Below, piece by piece: positions 16,801 through 63,188 of a stretch of DNA of 64,000 nt. Location of the stretch: positions 1 through 64,000 of the forward strand of contig JAAFIG010000004.1 of assembly GCA_013298595.1 (NCBI GenBank). The letters run 5' to 3'. The notes beneath the pieces are model-generated. The model did not search any database and was not told where the DNA came from. It was given only the letters and a program-made list of their open reading frames with translations. How positions within the stretch are numbered: position 1 is the first letter of the stretch; every line of letters begins with the position of its first letter. A program made the translations under genes and the position numbers. Origin of the DNA: Deinococcales bacterium. GTDB lineage: Bacteria; Deinococcota; Deinococci; Deinococcales; JAAFIG01.

Positions 16801-16810
16801 TGTTGTAATA

Positions 16811-56994: not shown

Positions 56995-58200
56995 ATGACA
57001 ATTCACAGCCATCTCGAGCAGAATAAACCCATGAGAATAGGAATTGTTTTAATCATCGCAGGAGCATTATTTTTTGTGGCAAATACACCAAGTTTATTTC
57101 GTGATTTGCGTGGCACGAAAATCAATTTGCAAAGTGTAGCAGAGCAATTACAGCCTAAAGACAATCGCCAAGAGAGCATAACTCCTCGAGAAAACACAGC
57201 CTCCACAGAAACATTGAATCTGGATACTATTAAAACCCTGATTCTTGAGACCAGCGACGGCATAATTAACGTTGATACCAAAAGCTCAAATGTTCGTAAT
57301 CAATTACAAATTGTGAAACGTGGCGCGGTCAGTACTAACGTCACCCGCGATGGCAATACATTACGAGTCGAACTGAAAAGCCAATTGCTTAACTGCCAAA
57401 AATGCGGCGCAGATTACACCGTGGCATTGCGCGAAGGCATCAACCTCGAGTTGCACAATAGTTCTGGCAATATTTTTGTTCAGGGCAACGCCCTTGATAT
57501 TAAAGCCAGTGCCGCTGACGGCAACATCAATTTAACAAACACAGGTAATACCAGCCAAATTAAACTCGAGGTAGCCAGTGGCAACATCAATTTGCAAAAT
57601 GCCCAAGGCAAAATTGATATTAGTAATGCCGATGGCAACACCGAGTTACGCAACCTCGAGAACGCCCAATTAAACCTTGAAGCCTCGAGTGGCACAGTAT
57701 TTCTGGATGGCATTGGGTTTAGTAACAACGAACAAAGTTTAACCCTTGCCGATACAAAACTCGAGCTTCGTAACGCCCGCAATGCTAACCTAAAAATCTC
57801 GAGCAGTAGCCAAAAAATTCTGCTCGAGAACATCGAATTTAGTGGTTTAAGCAACATCGAAAGCGCGAACAGCGAAGTACGTTTACTCAACACCAAAAAC
57901 ACCCATATTAACATCAGCAACTCGAGCCAAAATATCATCCTCGAGAACACTACTTTTATGGCTGGCTCGAGCAATAAAATAAGCATTGCTGATGGCAATG
58001 TCAGCATCGTTAACCTCAACACCCAAGATGGTTTTAAACTCGAGGGAACAGGTGCAGATACATCTTTTCAGAATGCGTTAACCAATTTTCAAACCGAGTT
58101 AAACCCAAATGAGGAACTGCTATACCGTTCCGTGAGGAACGGCGAAAATCCTGCAAAACTCGAGATAGACAGTAGTAGTGCTCGAGTGACAATTCAATAG
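56995..58200 (+). CDS. membrane-anchored repeat protein, DUF4097-like beta-solenoid
   Basis: A 401-residue protein with one N-terminal helix (about 14-32), a spacer and a series of short beta-strand repeats from about 80 to 390. Units such as GNINLTNTGN, GNINLQNAQG and GNTELRNLEN recall DUF4097/putative adhesin solenoids. A Cys pair CQKC lies near 130. Asn is very frequent. The start at 56995 is 6 bp after higA; ATG 57031 would begin directly at the membrane helix and is an alternative. I do not assign a role. CTCGAG occurs twelve times in 57001-58000. Confidence 0.7.
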   Translation: MTIHSHLEQNKPMRIGIVLIIAGALFFVANTPSLFRDLRGTKINLQSVAEQLQPKDNRQESITPRENTASTETLNLDTIKTLILETSDGIINVDTKSSNVRNQLQIVKRGAVSTNVTRDGNTLRVELKSQLLNCQKCGADYTVALREGINLELHNSSGNIFVQGNALDIKASAADGNINLTNTGNTSQIKLEVASGNINLQNAQGKIDISNADGNTELRNLENAQLNLEASSGTVFLDGIGFSNNEQSLTLADTKLELRNARNANLKISSSSQKILLENIEFSGLSNIESANSEVRLLNTKNTHINISNSSQNIILENTTFMAGSSNKISIADGNVSIVNLNTQDGFKLEGTGADTSFQNALTNFQTELNPNEELLYRSVRNGENPAKLEIDSSSARVTIQ

Positions 58201-58367
58201 TTTTCTCGAGCCAAAATTGGCTTTATGTGATTTTTGAACATAAGAAAATCTCTAACAGAACACTCAAAACCAACTCATTACAAACACATCGTAACCAGTA
58301 GACTTGGCATTGATGTCGTAAGGCACGAGAGCAAAATACAACACATGGTAATTTTCGCAAAGGTGTG

Positions 58368-58373
58368 TATACT
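58368..58373 (+). promoter_or_regulatory. -10 box TATACT of the large lipoprotein
   Basis: TATACT lies 73 nt before the ATG. No strong -35 is visible. The leader to AGGAGG has no recognised structure. Confidence 0.35.
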
Positions 58374-58446
58374 ATTCTCGAGGCATCAAACGCGTGTCTT
58401 GCGTTGTAAGTATTTTGTAAGGTTTCAGAACTCATAGGAGGCGTTC

Positions 58447-60252
58447 ATGAAAAGTAAGATTTTCGGTTTATTAGCAACAGGTTTGGTAGCTGTTCTCACA
58501 GCTTGCCCACCACCACCGCCAGTAGTCACAACAGTTGCAGTTACGGGTAATAATACACTCACCAATGGATCGGCTGCGGCAACATACACGGCGACATTCA
58601 CACCTACTGCCACAACAGGTACAGTCGAGTGGACACTCAACCCACCAGCACCAAATGGTGGATCGCTTTCTGCTGTTTCAAGTACCATTGCTAACGGTAT
58701 TGCCACCGTTCAGTACACCCCACCAGTTACTGTCTCTGCAGCAATTCAAGTAACATTGACTGCCGTCAAGCAAGGCTCGAGTCCAGCCATCACAGACGTA
58801 AAAACCATTACTGTTAACCCAACAGTAACAACGGGTGTTACTGTCAATGGTAAGGTTTTCCAATGGAATAACCGTGCATTCGATGATGTCAACATTTTCA
58901 TCACCGATGCCACAGGTACAAACTTGCCAGACACACAATCAGCGGTGGATGGTACATTCAGCGTTGCTAATGTGGTTCCGCCGTACACCATCTCAGCAGT
59001 GCCAGCCCCAGGAACTGCTGTTGCACCAATCTCGTATGATGCAGTTTCAACAACAACACCGAACCTTGTGTTGACAAAATCACAATACTTGTTCGGCAAC
59101 CCTCCTGGCTTTAACCCAGACCAAGTTTCTGGTGTCAACGAAAACTGCCTTCCAAAACGCCAAGACGGCATCATGTCAGTTCGTTTAGCAAGCCCAGTGC
59201 CTGCAACTTCATCAGCACGAGCTATTTTCTTTGGCGAAGGTATTTCTTTCCGACCAACAGAATCAACCGCTTCAGATATTATTCCAGGCGGTAGTACCAA
59301 CGTTTCTTTCGCAGTTCCTTTCGACCAAGAATTCTGTAAGAACGTGATTGATGGAAAATTACTTGTTATCGAATTCGATGCAGGTGGAGTTATTCAGAAA
59401 AAAGGCTTCCGTGATGTTTCTGTCATCACAGGTAATAAGACTTGTGTTGGTCAATGTGTTGGTGCTGGTGGTACAGACACACCAAACCTGAACTTGAACC
59501 AAAGCACAGGTTTGAGCTTCACAGGTAATGTGGAATTCCCACAAGGTGCAGACGAAACAACTTCTGCTGTTACCGCATTTATTCGCTTCCAAAAACTGCC
59601 AACCGATGTTCCTTCCTACTTCCCATTAAAAGTTGATAATGTCACTCGTGCAGATCCAAATTACAACACTGGTGTGATTGACTTAGCAACCGAAGGCTTG
59701 TCCTACCGTCTCCAAGCTAGAGTCAATAACGTCGCGGGTGATGCAGTTTCATGGGCAAACTCGGCTATTTTCACATCACCACAATCAGGTGTTGTTCTTA
59801 ACTACCCAAGCTTTGGTGGTACAACCACACCAAATGGTAATACCCCAGATAGCGACGTAACTCCAACATTTAGACAAGGTACAGTTAGCCAAATGAACAC
59901 ATACTTCCGTTTCTTCCAAAGCGCAGTTCTCTCTGAGTTATGGTTAGGTGGTTCACCAATCACTTCCATGACCTTACCTGTCTTACCAGACCCTGCACGT
60001 TTAGCAGTGCAAAGACCATACAATTGGTTTGCACTTAATGCCTTGAAACTTGCCGATGTCACCGCAACCAATAACGGCAGCAATGTTGCTCTTGGTAATG
60101 TGGCAGCAGGTGGACTTGCTCGCCCGTACAATGCACTTCGTAACTTGTACGGCTTCAATGCAGCATCAGAGTTAGACCTCATTAACGCTGGTTCAGTAAA
60201 CCTTAAGCCAACACCTGCTTGTGTTATCACCCCTGGTCAAAACTGCCCATAA
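58447..60252 (+). CDS. large surface lipoprotein with Ig/CarboxypepD_reg-like region
   Basis: A 601-residue lipoprotein. The signal peptide ends in the lipobox LTAC, Cys20, followed by five prolines. Residues 30-130 form an Ig-like strand module with many Thr; about 130-200 resembles the CarboxypepD_reg fold (VNGKVFQWNNRAFDDVNIFI, with TFSVANV). The C-terminal 400 residues are unassigned beta-rich sequence with one Cys pair (KTCVGQCVG) and a terminal Cys pair. AGGAGG precedes the start. Only one CTCGAG occurs in 1.8 kb. The terminator at 60271 follows. Confidence 0.8.
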   Translation: MKSKIFGLLATGLVAVLTACPPPPPVVTTVAVTGNNTLTNGSAAATYTATFTPTATTGTVEWTLNPPAPNGGSLSAVSSTIANGIATVQYTPPVTVSAAIQVTLTAVKQGSSPAITDVKTITVNPTVTTGVTVNGKVFQWNNRAFDDVNIFITDATGTNLPDTQSAVDGTFSVANVVPPYTISAVPAPGTAVAPISYDAVSTTTPNLVLTKSQYLFGNPPGFNPDQVSGVNENCLPKRQDGIMSVRLASPVPATSSARAIFFGEGISFRPTESTASDIIPGGSTNVSFAVPFDQEFCKNVIDGKLLVIEFDAGGVIQKKGFRDVSVITGNKTCVGQCVGAGGTDTPNLNLNQSTGLSFTGNVEFPQGADETTSAVTAFIRFQKLPTDVPSYFPLKVDNVTRADPNYNTGVIDLATEGLSYRLQARVNNVAGDAVSWANSAIFTSPQSGVVLNYPSFGGTTTPNGNTPDSDVTPTFRQGTVSQMNTYFRFFQSAVLSELWLGGSPITSMTLPVLPDPARLAVQRPYNWFALNALKLADVTATNNGSNVALGNVAAGGLARPYNALRNLYGFNAASELDLINAGSVNLKPTPACVITPGQNCP

Positions 60253-60270
60253 TCTTCAAATAGCTTTGTT

Positions 60271-60305
60271 ACTCGAGCCTCCCAAAAGGAGGCTCGAGTT
60301 TTTTA
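60271..60305 (+). terminator. terminator, first of two near-identical copies
   Basis: A 12-bp stem (60271-60282 with 60288-60299), loop CAAAA and six T. Both arms carry CTCGAG. The same 29 bases and the following TTATTGCC recur at 61018. Confidence 0.93.
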
Positions 60306-60340
60306 TTGCCTTTGCTTTTGCTGTGGCTTTAGCCTGAATC

Positions 60341-60369
60341 TTTGCAAAAAGTCCGTTTTGTGGCACAAT
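60341..60369 (+). promoter_or_regulatory. candidate promoter of the antitoxin gene
   Basis: TTTGCA (60341-60346), a 17-bp spacer and CACAAT (60364-60369) end 6 nt before the ATG. The message would be leaderless. Confidence 0.45.
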
Positions 60370-60375
60370 AACACC

Positions 60376-60618
60376 ATGAGCTTACTCGAGTTACAAAACC
60401 AAGCTGCACAATTACCATTGGATCAACGAACTGCTTTGATTCTTCATTTACAACAAACATTGACCGCTGAACAATTACAAACTTTACTACTCGAGAAAAC
60501 AAAAAATGAAACTCAGTATCAATCTTGGGTTGGTATTGGCGCATCAGGAATTGGGAATTTATCTGAACGAATAGACGAATTGCTTTTTGCCGATTCACCC
60601 CTCGAGCGCCAAAAGTGA
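60376..60618 (+). CDS. VapB-type antitoxin candidate
   Basis: An 80-residue protein directly before a PIN toxin, its stop overlapping the toxin GTG in GTGA. The first 45 residues are helical, rich in Gln and Leu (LQNQAAQLPLDQRTALILHL), and the C-terminus is acidic, ending DELLFADSPLERQK. No DNA-binding motif is recognised, so the antitoxin role rests on context, size and coupling. Confidence 0.7.
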   Translation: MSLLELQNQAAQLPLDQRTALILHLQQTLTAEQLQTLLLEKTKNETQYQSWVGIGASGIGNLSERIDELLFADSPLERQK

Positions 60619-61013
60619 TTCTATGTGATACTGGAGCTTTGGTTGCTCTGATAGATACTTCAGATAAACATCATGTAGCCGTTAAAGCATTTAGTACCGA
60701 GAAGCTACTTGTTCCGACAACTGTATTATGCGAAGTTGATTATTTTTTAACCAAATACCTTGGCGACAATGTTGCCAAAACTTTTTTGGAACGTGTGGCA
60801 AAAAATAATGAATTACTCGTTTTTGACGAAACAGATTTGGTTCGTGTCAACCAAATTCGTCGGCATTACAACGATTTACCGCTTGGTTTTGTGGATGCTA
60901 GTTTGGTTGCCTTAGCAGAACGTTATCGAATTCGTCAGATTTTAACCATAGATCGTAAGCATTTCTTAGCGGTTCAACCACTTCATTTAGGACATTTTGA
61001 ATTATTGCCATGA
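60615..61013 (+). CDS. VapC-like PIN-domain ribonuclease toxin
   Basis: The 132-residue protein has the PIN acidic triad: ILCDTGAL (Asp5), TVLCEVDYFL (Glu near 40) and GFVDASLVALAER (Asp near 93), and a final ILTIDRKHF strand. Such toxins cleave tRNA or rRNA with Mg2+. The GTG start overlaps the antitoxin stop. The second terminator copy begins 5 bp after the stop. Confidence 0.88.
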   Translation: MILCDTGALVALIDTSDKHHVAVKAFSTEKLLVPTTVLCEVDYFLTKYLGDNVAKTFLERVAKNNELLVFDETDLVRVNQIRRHYNDLPLGFVDASLVALAERYRIRQILTIDRKHFLAVQPLHLGHFELLP

Positions 61014-61017
61014 GCCA

Positions 61018-61053
61018 ACTCGAGCCTCCCAAAAGGAGGCTCGAGTTTATTAT
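61018..61053 (+). terminator. terminator, second copy
   Basis: The stem (61018-61029 with 61035-61046) and loop are identical to 60271-60299, and TTATTATTGCC follows. It also faces the convergent fic gene. Confidence 0.9.
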
Positions 61054-61075
61054 TGCCTTGCCGTAGCTCGAGGTT

Positions 61076-62101
61076 TTATCGTTTGCGTTTGTATTTCGTA
61101 GCTCGTCCAGCACCGTGTTTCTCGAGCAACCCTAATTGAACTAAGTACGTCAAATCTCGAGCGGCAGTCATATGCGAAGCACTTGTTAGGCGTTGTATAT
61201 CTGCGTTTGAAATTAGGGCATTCGTTGGTTCTAGTAATGCCAATATCCGCCATTGACGTTCGTTGAGTAACGGTATTTCGGGTAAGGTTTGATGCTCTTT
61301 GGTTTGTAAACGTTGTTTTAGATTTTGTAATTGCTCGAGTAAGCCTGTCACAACAAAGTATATCCATGCTGCCCAGTCTTGGTGCTTTAAACTCGTTTGA
61401 ATTTTTTCATAGTATTGAAATAGGTGATTTTTGTAATAGGGTTCAAGTGCAATCAGTCCTCGAGCATCCCATGCGTGTTGTGCCAACACCAGTGTCTCGA
61501 GTAAACGTGCTGTGCGTCCGTTCCCATCCATGAATGGATGAATTCGTACAAATTCGAGGTGGATGATGGCTGCTCGAATTGCGGGGTGGAGTGATGATTG
61601 CTGATTCCATTGGCACATCGCTGCGATGCGCTGTGCTATATCTTTGGCTGGGTCGCCTTCGTGGACTGGTTCTTGTGTTCGGGTATCAAAAACAAATACA
61701 GGGTCTGTTCGCCATTTTCCAAGACGGGCTGGTAGATCAAGGTCACGCATAATCATATGGTGTAGTTCTATAATTGTTTGACTATCTAGTGGCTTGTTAT
61801 GTCCTGACCATTCATGGCGAATCCAATCTAAGGCATGTTTATAATTGCGAACTTCAATTTCACGGTTACGTGGTTTAAGTATTGGTTGATTACTCAGTAA
61901 TTTGCGTACTTCCTCGAGCGTTAATGGGTTTCCTTCGATAGCAGTGCTGTAATGTGTTGCTTCGATGCTGCTTTGGAAGCGCCACTCGAGTTCTATTTGT
62001 GGGTTTATTGGTGTCAGTAACACTGTTTGCCTGAGAAGACTGGCTTGCCACAGCAATGCTTCAAGATTGGCTGAAATCAGAATTTGCGGTTGGAAAATCA
62101 T
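61076..62101 (-). CDS. Fic-domain protein with self-inhibitory motif
   Basis: A 341-residue AMP-transferase-like enzyme. HPFMDGNGRTARLLE (near 170) is the full Fic motif with catalytic His. TAIEGNPLT near residue 48 matches the (S/T)xxxE(G/N) inhibitory helix of class II Fic proteins, so the enzyme should be autoinhibited. The C-terminal 80 residues look like a winged helix (RQWRILALLEP). ATG 62101 follows TATGAT by 6 nt; the longer frame to 62197 is AT-rich and unlikely. Confidence 0.9.
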   Translation of the reverse strand: MIFQPQILISANLEALLWQASLLRQTVLLTPINPQIELEWRFQSSIEATHYSTAIEGNPLTLEEVRKLLSNQPILKPRNREIEVRNYKHALDWIRHEWSGHNKPLDSQTIIELHHMIMRDLDLPARLGKWRTDPVFVFDTRTQEPVHEGDPAKDIAQRIAAMCQWNQQSSLHPAIRAAIIHLEFVRIHPFMDGNGRTARLLETLVLAQHAWDARGLIALEPYYKNHLFQYYEKIQTSLKHQDWAAWIYFVVTGLLEQLQNLKQRLQTKEHQTLPEIPLLNERQWRILALLEPTNALISNADIQRLTSASHMTAARDLTYLVQLGLLEKHGAGRATKYKRKR

Positions 62102-62107
62102 CACATA

Positions 62108-62113
62108 ATCATA
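62108..62113 (-). promoter_or_regulatory. -10 box TATGAT, 6 nt before fic
   Basis: On the minus strand TATGAT ends 6 nt before the ATG at 62101. The surrounding DNA is T-rich and no single -35 stands out. Confidence 0.45.
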
Positions 62114-62324
62114 ACAAAATCGTAACAAAATAAAAAACGCTATTGCGAAGCTCGAGCTTTGGCTGCTCAAAAGCTCATCAAACCCAAACTGCACCAAAAT
62201 CTCATATATAAGACTTATTAAAGTTTTGTGTGATTTACAGCGTACTCATGATAAATTCTTTGCACCAATACCTCATTCTCGAGGCTTAGCGTTCTCGAGT
62301 ACCGAAGTATTTTTGGAGGTTTTC

Positions 62325-63188
62325 ATGAAAAAATTAGGATTAGTTGTAGCTGCGTTCTTACCGTTCGTCCTCAATTCGTGTTTGAATCAAACACCACCAA
62401 TTAATACGGTCAGTCCCGCTGGTGTTTATCAGGATTCCAATGTCTTAACTGTTGGTATTTGCGGTGCAGTTAACGGCTCGAGTTTAAAATTGCGTTTTGT
62501 GATTCCCGAACCAACCGCTACTGGAGCAATTAATTTTCAAGTTGTCTCGGATTCATTTACGCCACCTGGTGGGTTAAGTAGTGGTAATGGTGTGGTCACA
62601 CAAACGGTGATTGGTTCGTATGCCAATACCTCGAGTGCTTTGACTGGTTCGTTTAAAGTAGATTCCAATACCACCACAATATCTGGGGCATTTAATGAAG
62701 CTCGAACTCAGTTTTCTGGAACGTTAACAGCTTCGTGTACTAATTCGCCAAGCAGTTCTCCTGTTAATTACACTTTTGTGGCTGTTAAACAAACAGGTTC
62801 GGTCAGTCCTGTTGGATTGTACAAAGATAACAATGTCAGTAACACAAGTTTTTGTGCGACTGCGGCTGGTATAACCACCAAAATTTCGCTTTCTTTGCCC
62901 GAACCTTCCACTTCTGGCGCACTGAGCATTCCTGTCACAGTGCAAAACATTACTGATACAACGAACAGCACCTCGAGTGGCACACTGACAGGTTCGTACA
63001 ACGCTGGCACGGGTAACTTCACGGGTTTTGGTACGATTACACTCGAGGGTGGCACAACCAGCAATACAGCCACTGTTAATGGCAACCTCAATTTACTAGC
63101 AAATCAAATCTTTGGTTCGCTCACCCTGACTTGTGGCTCGAGTCCAACGCCATCTGGAACACTCAAATTCTTAGCTGTCAAACAATAA
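62325..63188 (+). CDS. lipoprotein with two related beta domains
   Basis: A 287-residue lipoprotein. The signal peptide ends LNSC with Cys19. The mature part contains two units of about 125 residues, each starting VSP.G.Y.D.NV, with PEP..(T/S)GA in the middle and F.AVKQ at the end, and each with two Cys. This is an internal duplication. No family is recognised. GGAGG lies 6 nt before the ATG. It converges with glgA with 6 bp between the stops. Confidence 0.78.
   Translation: MKKLGLVVAAFLPFVLNSCLNQTPPINTVSPAGVYQDSNVLTVGICGAVNGSSLKLRFVIPEPTATGAINFQVVSDSFTPPGGLSSGNGVVTQTVIGSYANTSSALTGSFKVDSNTTTISGAFNEARTQFSGTLTASCTNSPSSSPVNYTFVAVKQTGSVSPVGLYKDNNVSNTSFCATAAGITTKISLSLPEPSTSGALSIPVTVQNITDTTNSTSSGTLTGSYNAGTGNFTGFGTITLEGGTTSNTATVNGNLNLLANQIFGSLTLTCGSSPTPSGTLKFLAVKQ

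Follow-up and report, generated by a model that had tools for sequence, protein, structure and literature searches.

The stretch of DNA analysed here, referred to below as the window, covers 64,000 nucleotides of contig JAAFIG010000004.1 from a Deinococcales bacterium, the draft genome of which comprises 4.58 Mb in 68 contigs and has the Deinococcales MAGs JAAFJQ01 (G001) and JANYHH01 (G003) as its nearest named relatives. In this window, a gene pair of predicted toxin-antitoxin type lies between two copies of a terminator-like hairpin, in the following arrangement:

58447–60252, + strand: predicted lipoprotein gene (601 aa), the likely target gene whose terminator is present in duplicate, with 36% identical orthologues in two relatives (G002:C68 and G003:C50)
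60271–60312, + strand: repeat copy 1, interpreted as the native terminator of the lipoprotein gene, with an unbroken T6 run
60313–60375, + strand: left end of the proposed insert, upstream of vapB, with putative promoter-like elements (TTGCAA / CACAAT) recognised by eye
60376–60618, + strand: vapB-like antitoxin gene (80 aa), named VapB-like by position only
60615–61013, + strand: vapC toxin gene with a PIN domain (132 aa; PF01850, E = 4.1e-15), whose GTG start overlaps the vapB stop codon
61018–61059, + strand: repeat copy 2, interpreted as the duplicated terminator, 4 bp past the vapC stop codon, with an interrupted T run (TTTATTATT)
61076–62101, − strand: Fic-domain gene (PF02661, E = 1.4e-20; SoFic model), convergent with vapC and the right-hand neighbour of the proposed insertion

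The PF01850 match covers residues 2–115 of the toxin, with a TIGR00028 match falling below the cut-off, and the same gene order, with a small antitoxin ORF directly upstream of the toxin, is also present in G001 and G003. Family models often miss antitoxins that are small and evolve fast, and the 80-aa VapB-like protein gave no significant match in Pfam or NCBIfam. Judged by domain content and gene order, the pair is predicted to be a VapBC-type type II toxin-antitoxin (TA) module. A plasmid origin of this VapC received no support, the best plasmid match reaching just 41% identity, and an Rfam search of positions 58000–63000 returned no RNA family.

The two flanking copies constitute a direct repeat of 42 bp, identical at 41 of 42 positions and spaced 747 bp from start to start, and both are predicted to fold into a hairpin of 12–13 bp (−23.4 and −24.4 kcal/mol; z about −6.5) followed by a T-rich tail. 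The original prediction had described a duplicated hairpin of 29 bp flanking VapBC; the duplication is real, and its length has to be corrected to 42 bp. It had also described the antitoxin-toxin pair as the sole content between the copies, and the ORFs at 60376–60618 and 60615–61013 are indeed all that was found there. Past the 42 bp, no significant similarity was detected on either side, the alignment being no better than that of shuffled sequences. The local-alignment score of the repeat was 39; when the geometry was kept and the position drawn at random 6000 times within a 453-kb sample of the genome, the maximum was 34. When the genome was searched for further copies of the terminator, a 27-base hairpin pattern with up to three mismatches allowed had exactly two matches in the 4.58 Mb, both at the VapBC locus, and the same terminator was not found behind many unrelated genes. 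The pattern likewise had no match in the remaining 110 genomes of the order, in named GTDB contigs, or in IMG/VR.

The arrangement is not confined to the window. All PIN-domain loci of the four genomes of the family were listed, and at 73 of them the flanks were tested for direct repeats in which one copy precedes the antitoxin gene and the second follows closely on the stop codon of the toxin gene. Thirteen of the 73 reached a flank-repeat score of at least 14, compared with 1.08% (equivalent to 0.8 loci) when positions at these loci were shifted as a control, and seven reached a score of at least 20 (0.83% in controls); no flanking repeat was detectable at the remaining 60. A stricter count leaves approximately nine loci once the cases open to other readings are set aside, namely the tandem TA array L105/L117, the dispersed repeat at L036, and L114, where a long repeat extends into vapB. 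The array (G001:C15, 2991–4071) contains two tandem VapBC-like pairs, the second of which is followed by a further, third copy of their leader segment, and the dispersed repeat, 40–70 bp long and resembling GGTGCGGTGATTCCAGCGCGGCGCGGTTG, occurs between TA genes of G003 at L036:250, 1430, 2290, and 3090. Unit lengths cluster around 750 bp (747 bp at three loci, and also 749, 755, 758, 727, 702, and 776 bp); at many other TA loci, the repeat edge lies 0–40 bp past the toxin stop codon and the unit spans 640–870 bp. The duplication is 14–86 bp long at most loci, extending up to 261 bp, and its sequence differs at each independent locus, where it can correspond to part of a neighbouring protein gene:

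L039: last 15 codons and stop codon of a UbiD-like gene
G002:C35, position 171370: last 17 codons of a Uma2-like gene
L121: 3′ end of an arylamine N-acetyltransferase-like (NAT) gene
L038: start of a YhcG/DUF1016 nuclease gene
L158: 3′ end of a DUF2071-like gene

Of these names, YhcG is based on a Pfam match, and UbiD, Uma2, NAT, and DUF2071 were given by sequence appearance.

Empty sites were identified in sister genera for three loci, including that of the window. The lipoprotein orthologues of G002 and G003 are each followed, approximately 20 bp past the stop codon, by one terminator (ACTCGAGCCTCAGAATTTTCTGAGGCTCGAGTTTTTT in G002 and GCTCGAGCCAGCTAATCACTGGCTCGAGTTCTTTTTT in G003), with VapBC absent downstream; a one-terminator site of this kind had been proposed as a check among strains and is present here in relatives belonging to other genera. 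The comparison is made at 36% identity, and the orthology of the terminators rests on position as well as on sequence, because terminators with paired CTCGAG are common in these genomes. The G002 terminator aligns better with copy 1 of the window than with copy 2, and this better match, together with the unbroken T run of copy 1, indicates that copy 1 is native and that copy 2 was inserted along with VapBC. At the two other loci, the UbiD-like orthologue in G000 (75% identity) has a single native end (KPKSPTGHKRKPKGEL) with the next gene directly after it and no TA pair, and the Uma2-like orthologue in G003 has a single end (SPVQLVLECGCEITV), again with the TA pair absent.

An unbiased scan of 1.64 Mb from G000, G002, and G003, in which direct repeats 350–2000 bp apart were collected outside long ORFs and tandem duplications, again recovered TA modules, among them a RelE/HigB-like toxin plus HTH antitoxin, a PIN_3 toxin plus antitoxin, a Gp49-type toxin plus HTH protein, PemK/MazF, and several VapBC pairs. 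Among them, a HigBA-like pair flanked on both sides by the terminator of an S41 peptidase gene (G002:C35, 95576/96288; L166:15576–16335) is a second example of the exact arrangement seen in the window. Two further repeat-flanked pairs (L035:4617–5438 and L237:71–825) combine a small protein with a retropepsin-like aspartic protease and match the PADLOC candidate defence systems PDC-M08A/B and PDC-M52B; going by their insertion scar, these pairs may be TA-like. The same scar also surrounds non-TA genes, namely an Imm5-like gene and a cupin gene, the latter (L197:694–1374) being flanked by the duplicated 3′ end of a PhoU-like gene. Overall, insertions of this type are strongly biased towards TA modules, as the flank test was positive at 13 of 73 PIN loci versus about 4 of 240 other ORFs of 105–165 aa, the latter denominator being approximate (p = 2.6e-6). 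No comparable cassettes were seen within 400 kb of two outgroup genomes. A restriction of the pattern to this family (13/73 versus 0/25 in a Fisher test) is nevertheless not claimed, because the outgroup locus L078 (G083) carries a remnant of the C-terminus of the upstream gene after VapC.

We consider it probable, at roughly 80%, that a segment of ~705 bp with a promoter and both genes of the vapBC pair entered at the terminator behind the lipoprotein gene and duplicated a 42-bp target, as one case of a process that recurs in this Deinococcales family. In such an event, the native terminator would stay behind the lipoprotein gene and its copy would land behind vapC; the original prediction likewise held that insertion left a terminator behind each transcription unit, and this part of it is supported. 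More generally, small and mostly two-gene TA or defence modules would enter gene ends with long target duplications of variable length, and a long duplication at a gene end leaves the target gene intact. The joining step would most likely be the capture of a foreign fragment by end joining at chromosome ends that overlap or are staggered, a reaction that would duplicate a short target; such ends might arise from filled-in staggered breaks or from two genome copies being broken at different points. Members of the Deinococcota have multi-copy genomes that are broken by desiccation or radiation, a natural setting for fragment capture. The bias towards TA modules may in turn reflect retention, in that flanking repeats of tens of bp would delete ordinary inserts by recombination, while cells losing a TA module would be poisoned by the stable toxin.

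Several other explanations of the repeat were weighed. Chance, or a terminator family common in the window genome, could appeal to the fact that 16 of 37 terminator-like hairpins in the 453-kb sample contain CTCGAG, but no hairpins other than these two have sequence in common, the pattern stays unique even at three mismatches, and a score of 39 was never reached in the random placements, which leaves this explanation a negligible probability. It is also quite improbable that the two terminators were made identical by gene conversion or ectopic copying, unrelated to the insertion of VapBC. Closely spaced repeats are known to undergo conversion and both terminators serve neighbouring genes, yet this explanation would leave open why the same geometry recurs at many TA loci and why the repeats there consist of truncated gene ends. 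Slightly less improbable, though still unlikely, is homologous recombination through a single crossover with a circle or fragment in which VapBC was already accompanied by the same terminator. This would yield an identical final structure, with copies as similar as those observed (98% identity); however, the terminator occurs nowhere else in the genome, the order, or the GTDB contigs, this terminator is missing at the 80%-identical VapBC of G001, and shared homology cannot account for the other loci, where the sequence present twice is the end of the host gene itself and differs from case to case. The latter point also speaks against the cause put forward in the original prediction, namely recombination at a terminator that was already duplicated. 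The terminator duplication is better regarded as a result of the insertion, that is, as a target duplication, than as the agent of movement; the two copies could recombine and thereby excise the insert, which was not observed.

Among these alternatives, insertion by a site-specific recombinase or transposase acting in trans, possibly guided by CTCGAG (HIP-directed), retains the largest share of probability, although a minor one. The repeats contain 34 CTCGAG in 1308 bp, compared with about 8 expected at the genome average, many of them begin or finish at this hexamer, and HIP1 has been linked to excision and recombination in cyanobacteria (PMC4390886). On the other hand, the density of CTCGAG is in any case raised in the vicinity of stop codons (up to 1 per 87 bp), the repeat search itself favours shared CTCGAG, the duplication length varies from 14 to ~260 bp, and the cassette ends have no evident sequence in common. 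Neither a common terminal sequence nor an inverted repeat was evident on inspection of the cassette ends, and at the window cassette no inverted repeat pairs the two ends except for the palindromic terminators themselves. The cassettes that were inspected contained no recognisable recombinase gene, in line with the earlier suggestion of cassette behaviour without a recombinase. The variable duplication length, the differing targets, and the lack of shared ends and of a recombinase gene argue against a transposon, an integron, or an integrase-bearing element, and favour target-duplicating insertion as set out above. A broader version, in which TA and small defence modules are recombinase-free mobile cassettes of Deinococcales that enter gene ends at or near CTCGAG and are kept by addiction, is put forward tentatively, as a possibility that we regard as rather doubtful in its entirety.

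For restriction-modification genes, work on Helicobacter pylori led to the proposal of insertion with long target duplication (Nobusato et al. 2000, Gene 259:99, described in PMC1643837 and PMC3874152; Furuta et al. 2010, NAR; both cited in PMC1643837, PMC3874152, and PMC3031569). The two processes share addiction-type genes, the lack of a recognised recombinase, long direct repeats of variable length (of the order of 100 bp), and an empty site in a related genome. The Deinococcales cargo, by contrast, comprises type II TA modules and small candidate defence pairs rather than restriction-modification genes, and the duplications, mostly of 14–86 bp, involve the ends of protein genes or terminators at many loci of one family. 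The window locus has the structure of an insertion with long target duplication, as a variant with TA cargo, and no paper describing such duplication for TA modules was found in the literature searched.

Other mobile elements offer partial parallels. Integron cassettes, which include TA modules in superintegrons, are also small, can carry a promoter, and have their site right after the last stop codon, with hairpin flanks as a further likeness in the window case; the Deinococcales cassettes differ in having no shared attC-type site, in having locus-specific repeats derived from the neighbouring gene, and in lying at scattered loci rather than in a single array. Integration of prophages, ICEs, and casposons also duplicates a gene 3′ end and leaves the gene intact, but relies on an integrase and on one target per element, whereas the cassettes described here are ~700 bp long, have no integrase, and occupy differing targets. 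The terminal inverted repeats and the fixed-length target duplication typical of transposons and MITEs are both lacking.

The movement of chromosomal TA modules from site to site in the absence of a transposon has long raised questions; according to a 2009 review (PMC2654758), these modules are highly mobile, while the fixation of acquired ones is not understood. The scars reported here hint at spread without a transposase and broaden a process put forward for restriction-modification genes so that it takes in TA modules. Read together with empty sites, they reveal precisely where the mobile unit starts and stops, which targets it prefers, and the relative age of each insertion. A flanking scar may additionally flag unknown TA-like or defence pairs, such as those with an aspartic protease, and the idea that addiction guards repeat-flanked DNA from deletion becomes testable.

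The hexamer CTCGAG is a highly iterated palindrome in these genomes. It occurs 391 times in the window, compared with 7 expected, and approximately once per 160–170 bp in G000, G002, and G003, with far fewer occurrences at outgroup loci. About 40% of terminator-like hairpins contain it, often paired in both stem arms, as in the window at 16810, 60271, and 61018. HIP1 (GCGATCGC) of cyanobacteria is similarly a very frequent palindrome present at the edges of rearrangements (PMC4390886), although it differs in sequence and belongs to a different phylum; by analogy with HIP1, the abundance of CTCGAG is possibly tied to an orphan methyltransferase. For the insertions themselves, a role of CTCGAG is treated as a lead only, the enrichment being partly due to its density near stop codons and to search bias.

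The right-hand neighbour adds a complication. In G003 (L036), a Fic orthologue (62% identity) is also convergent with a VapBC pair, which belongs to another VapC lineage (53% toxin identity), and the closest VapC (80%), at G001:C24, lies elsewhere and without Fic. As a point against the proposed insertion, the VapBC–Fic neighbourhood could predate the repeat. Alternatively, the Fic gene could be a hot spot or one pair could have replaced another, neither of which affects the target-duplication reading. The antitoxins accompanying the two 80%-identical toxins (60376–60618 in the window and L004:1232–1504 in G001) share their C-terminal halves and have unrelated N-terminal halves, a pattern of domain swap.
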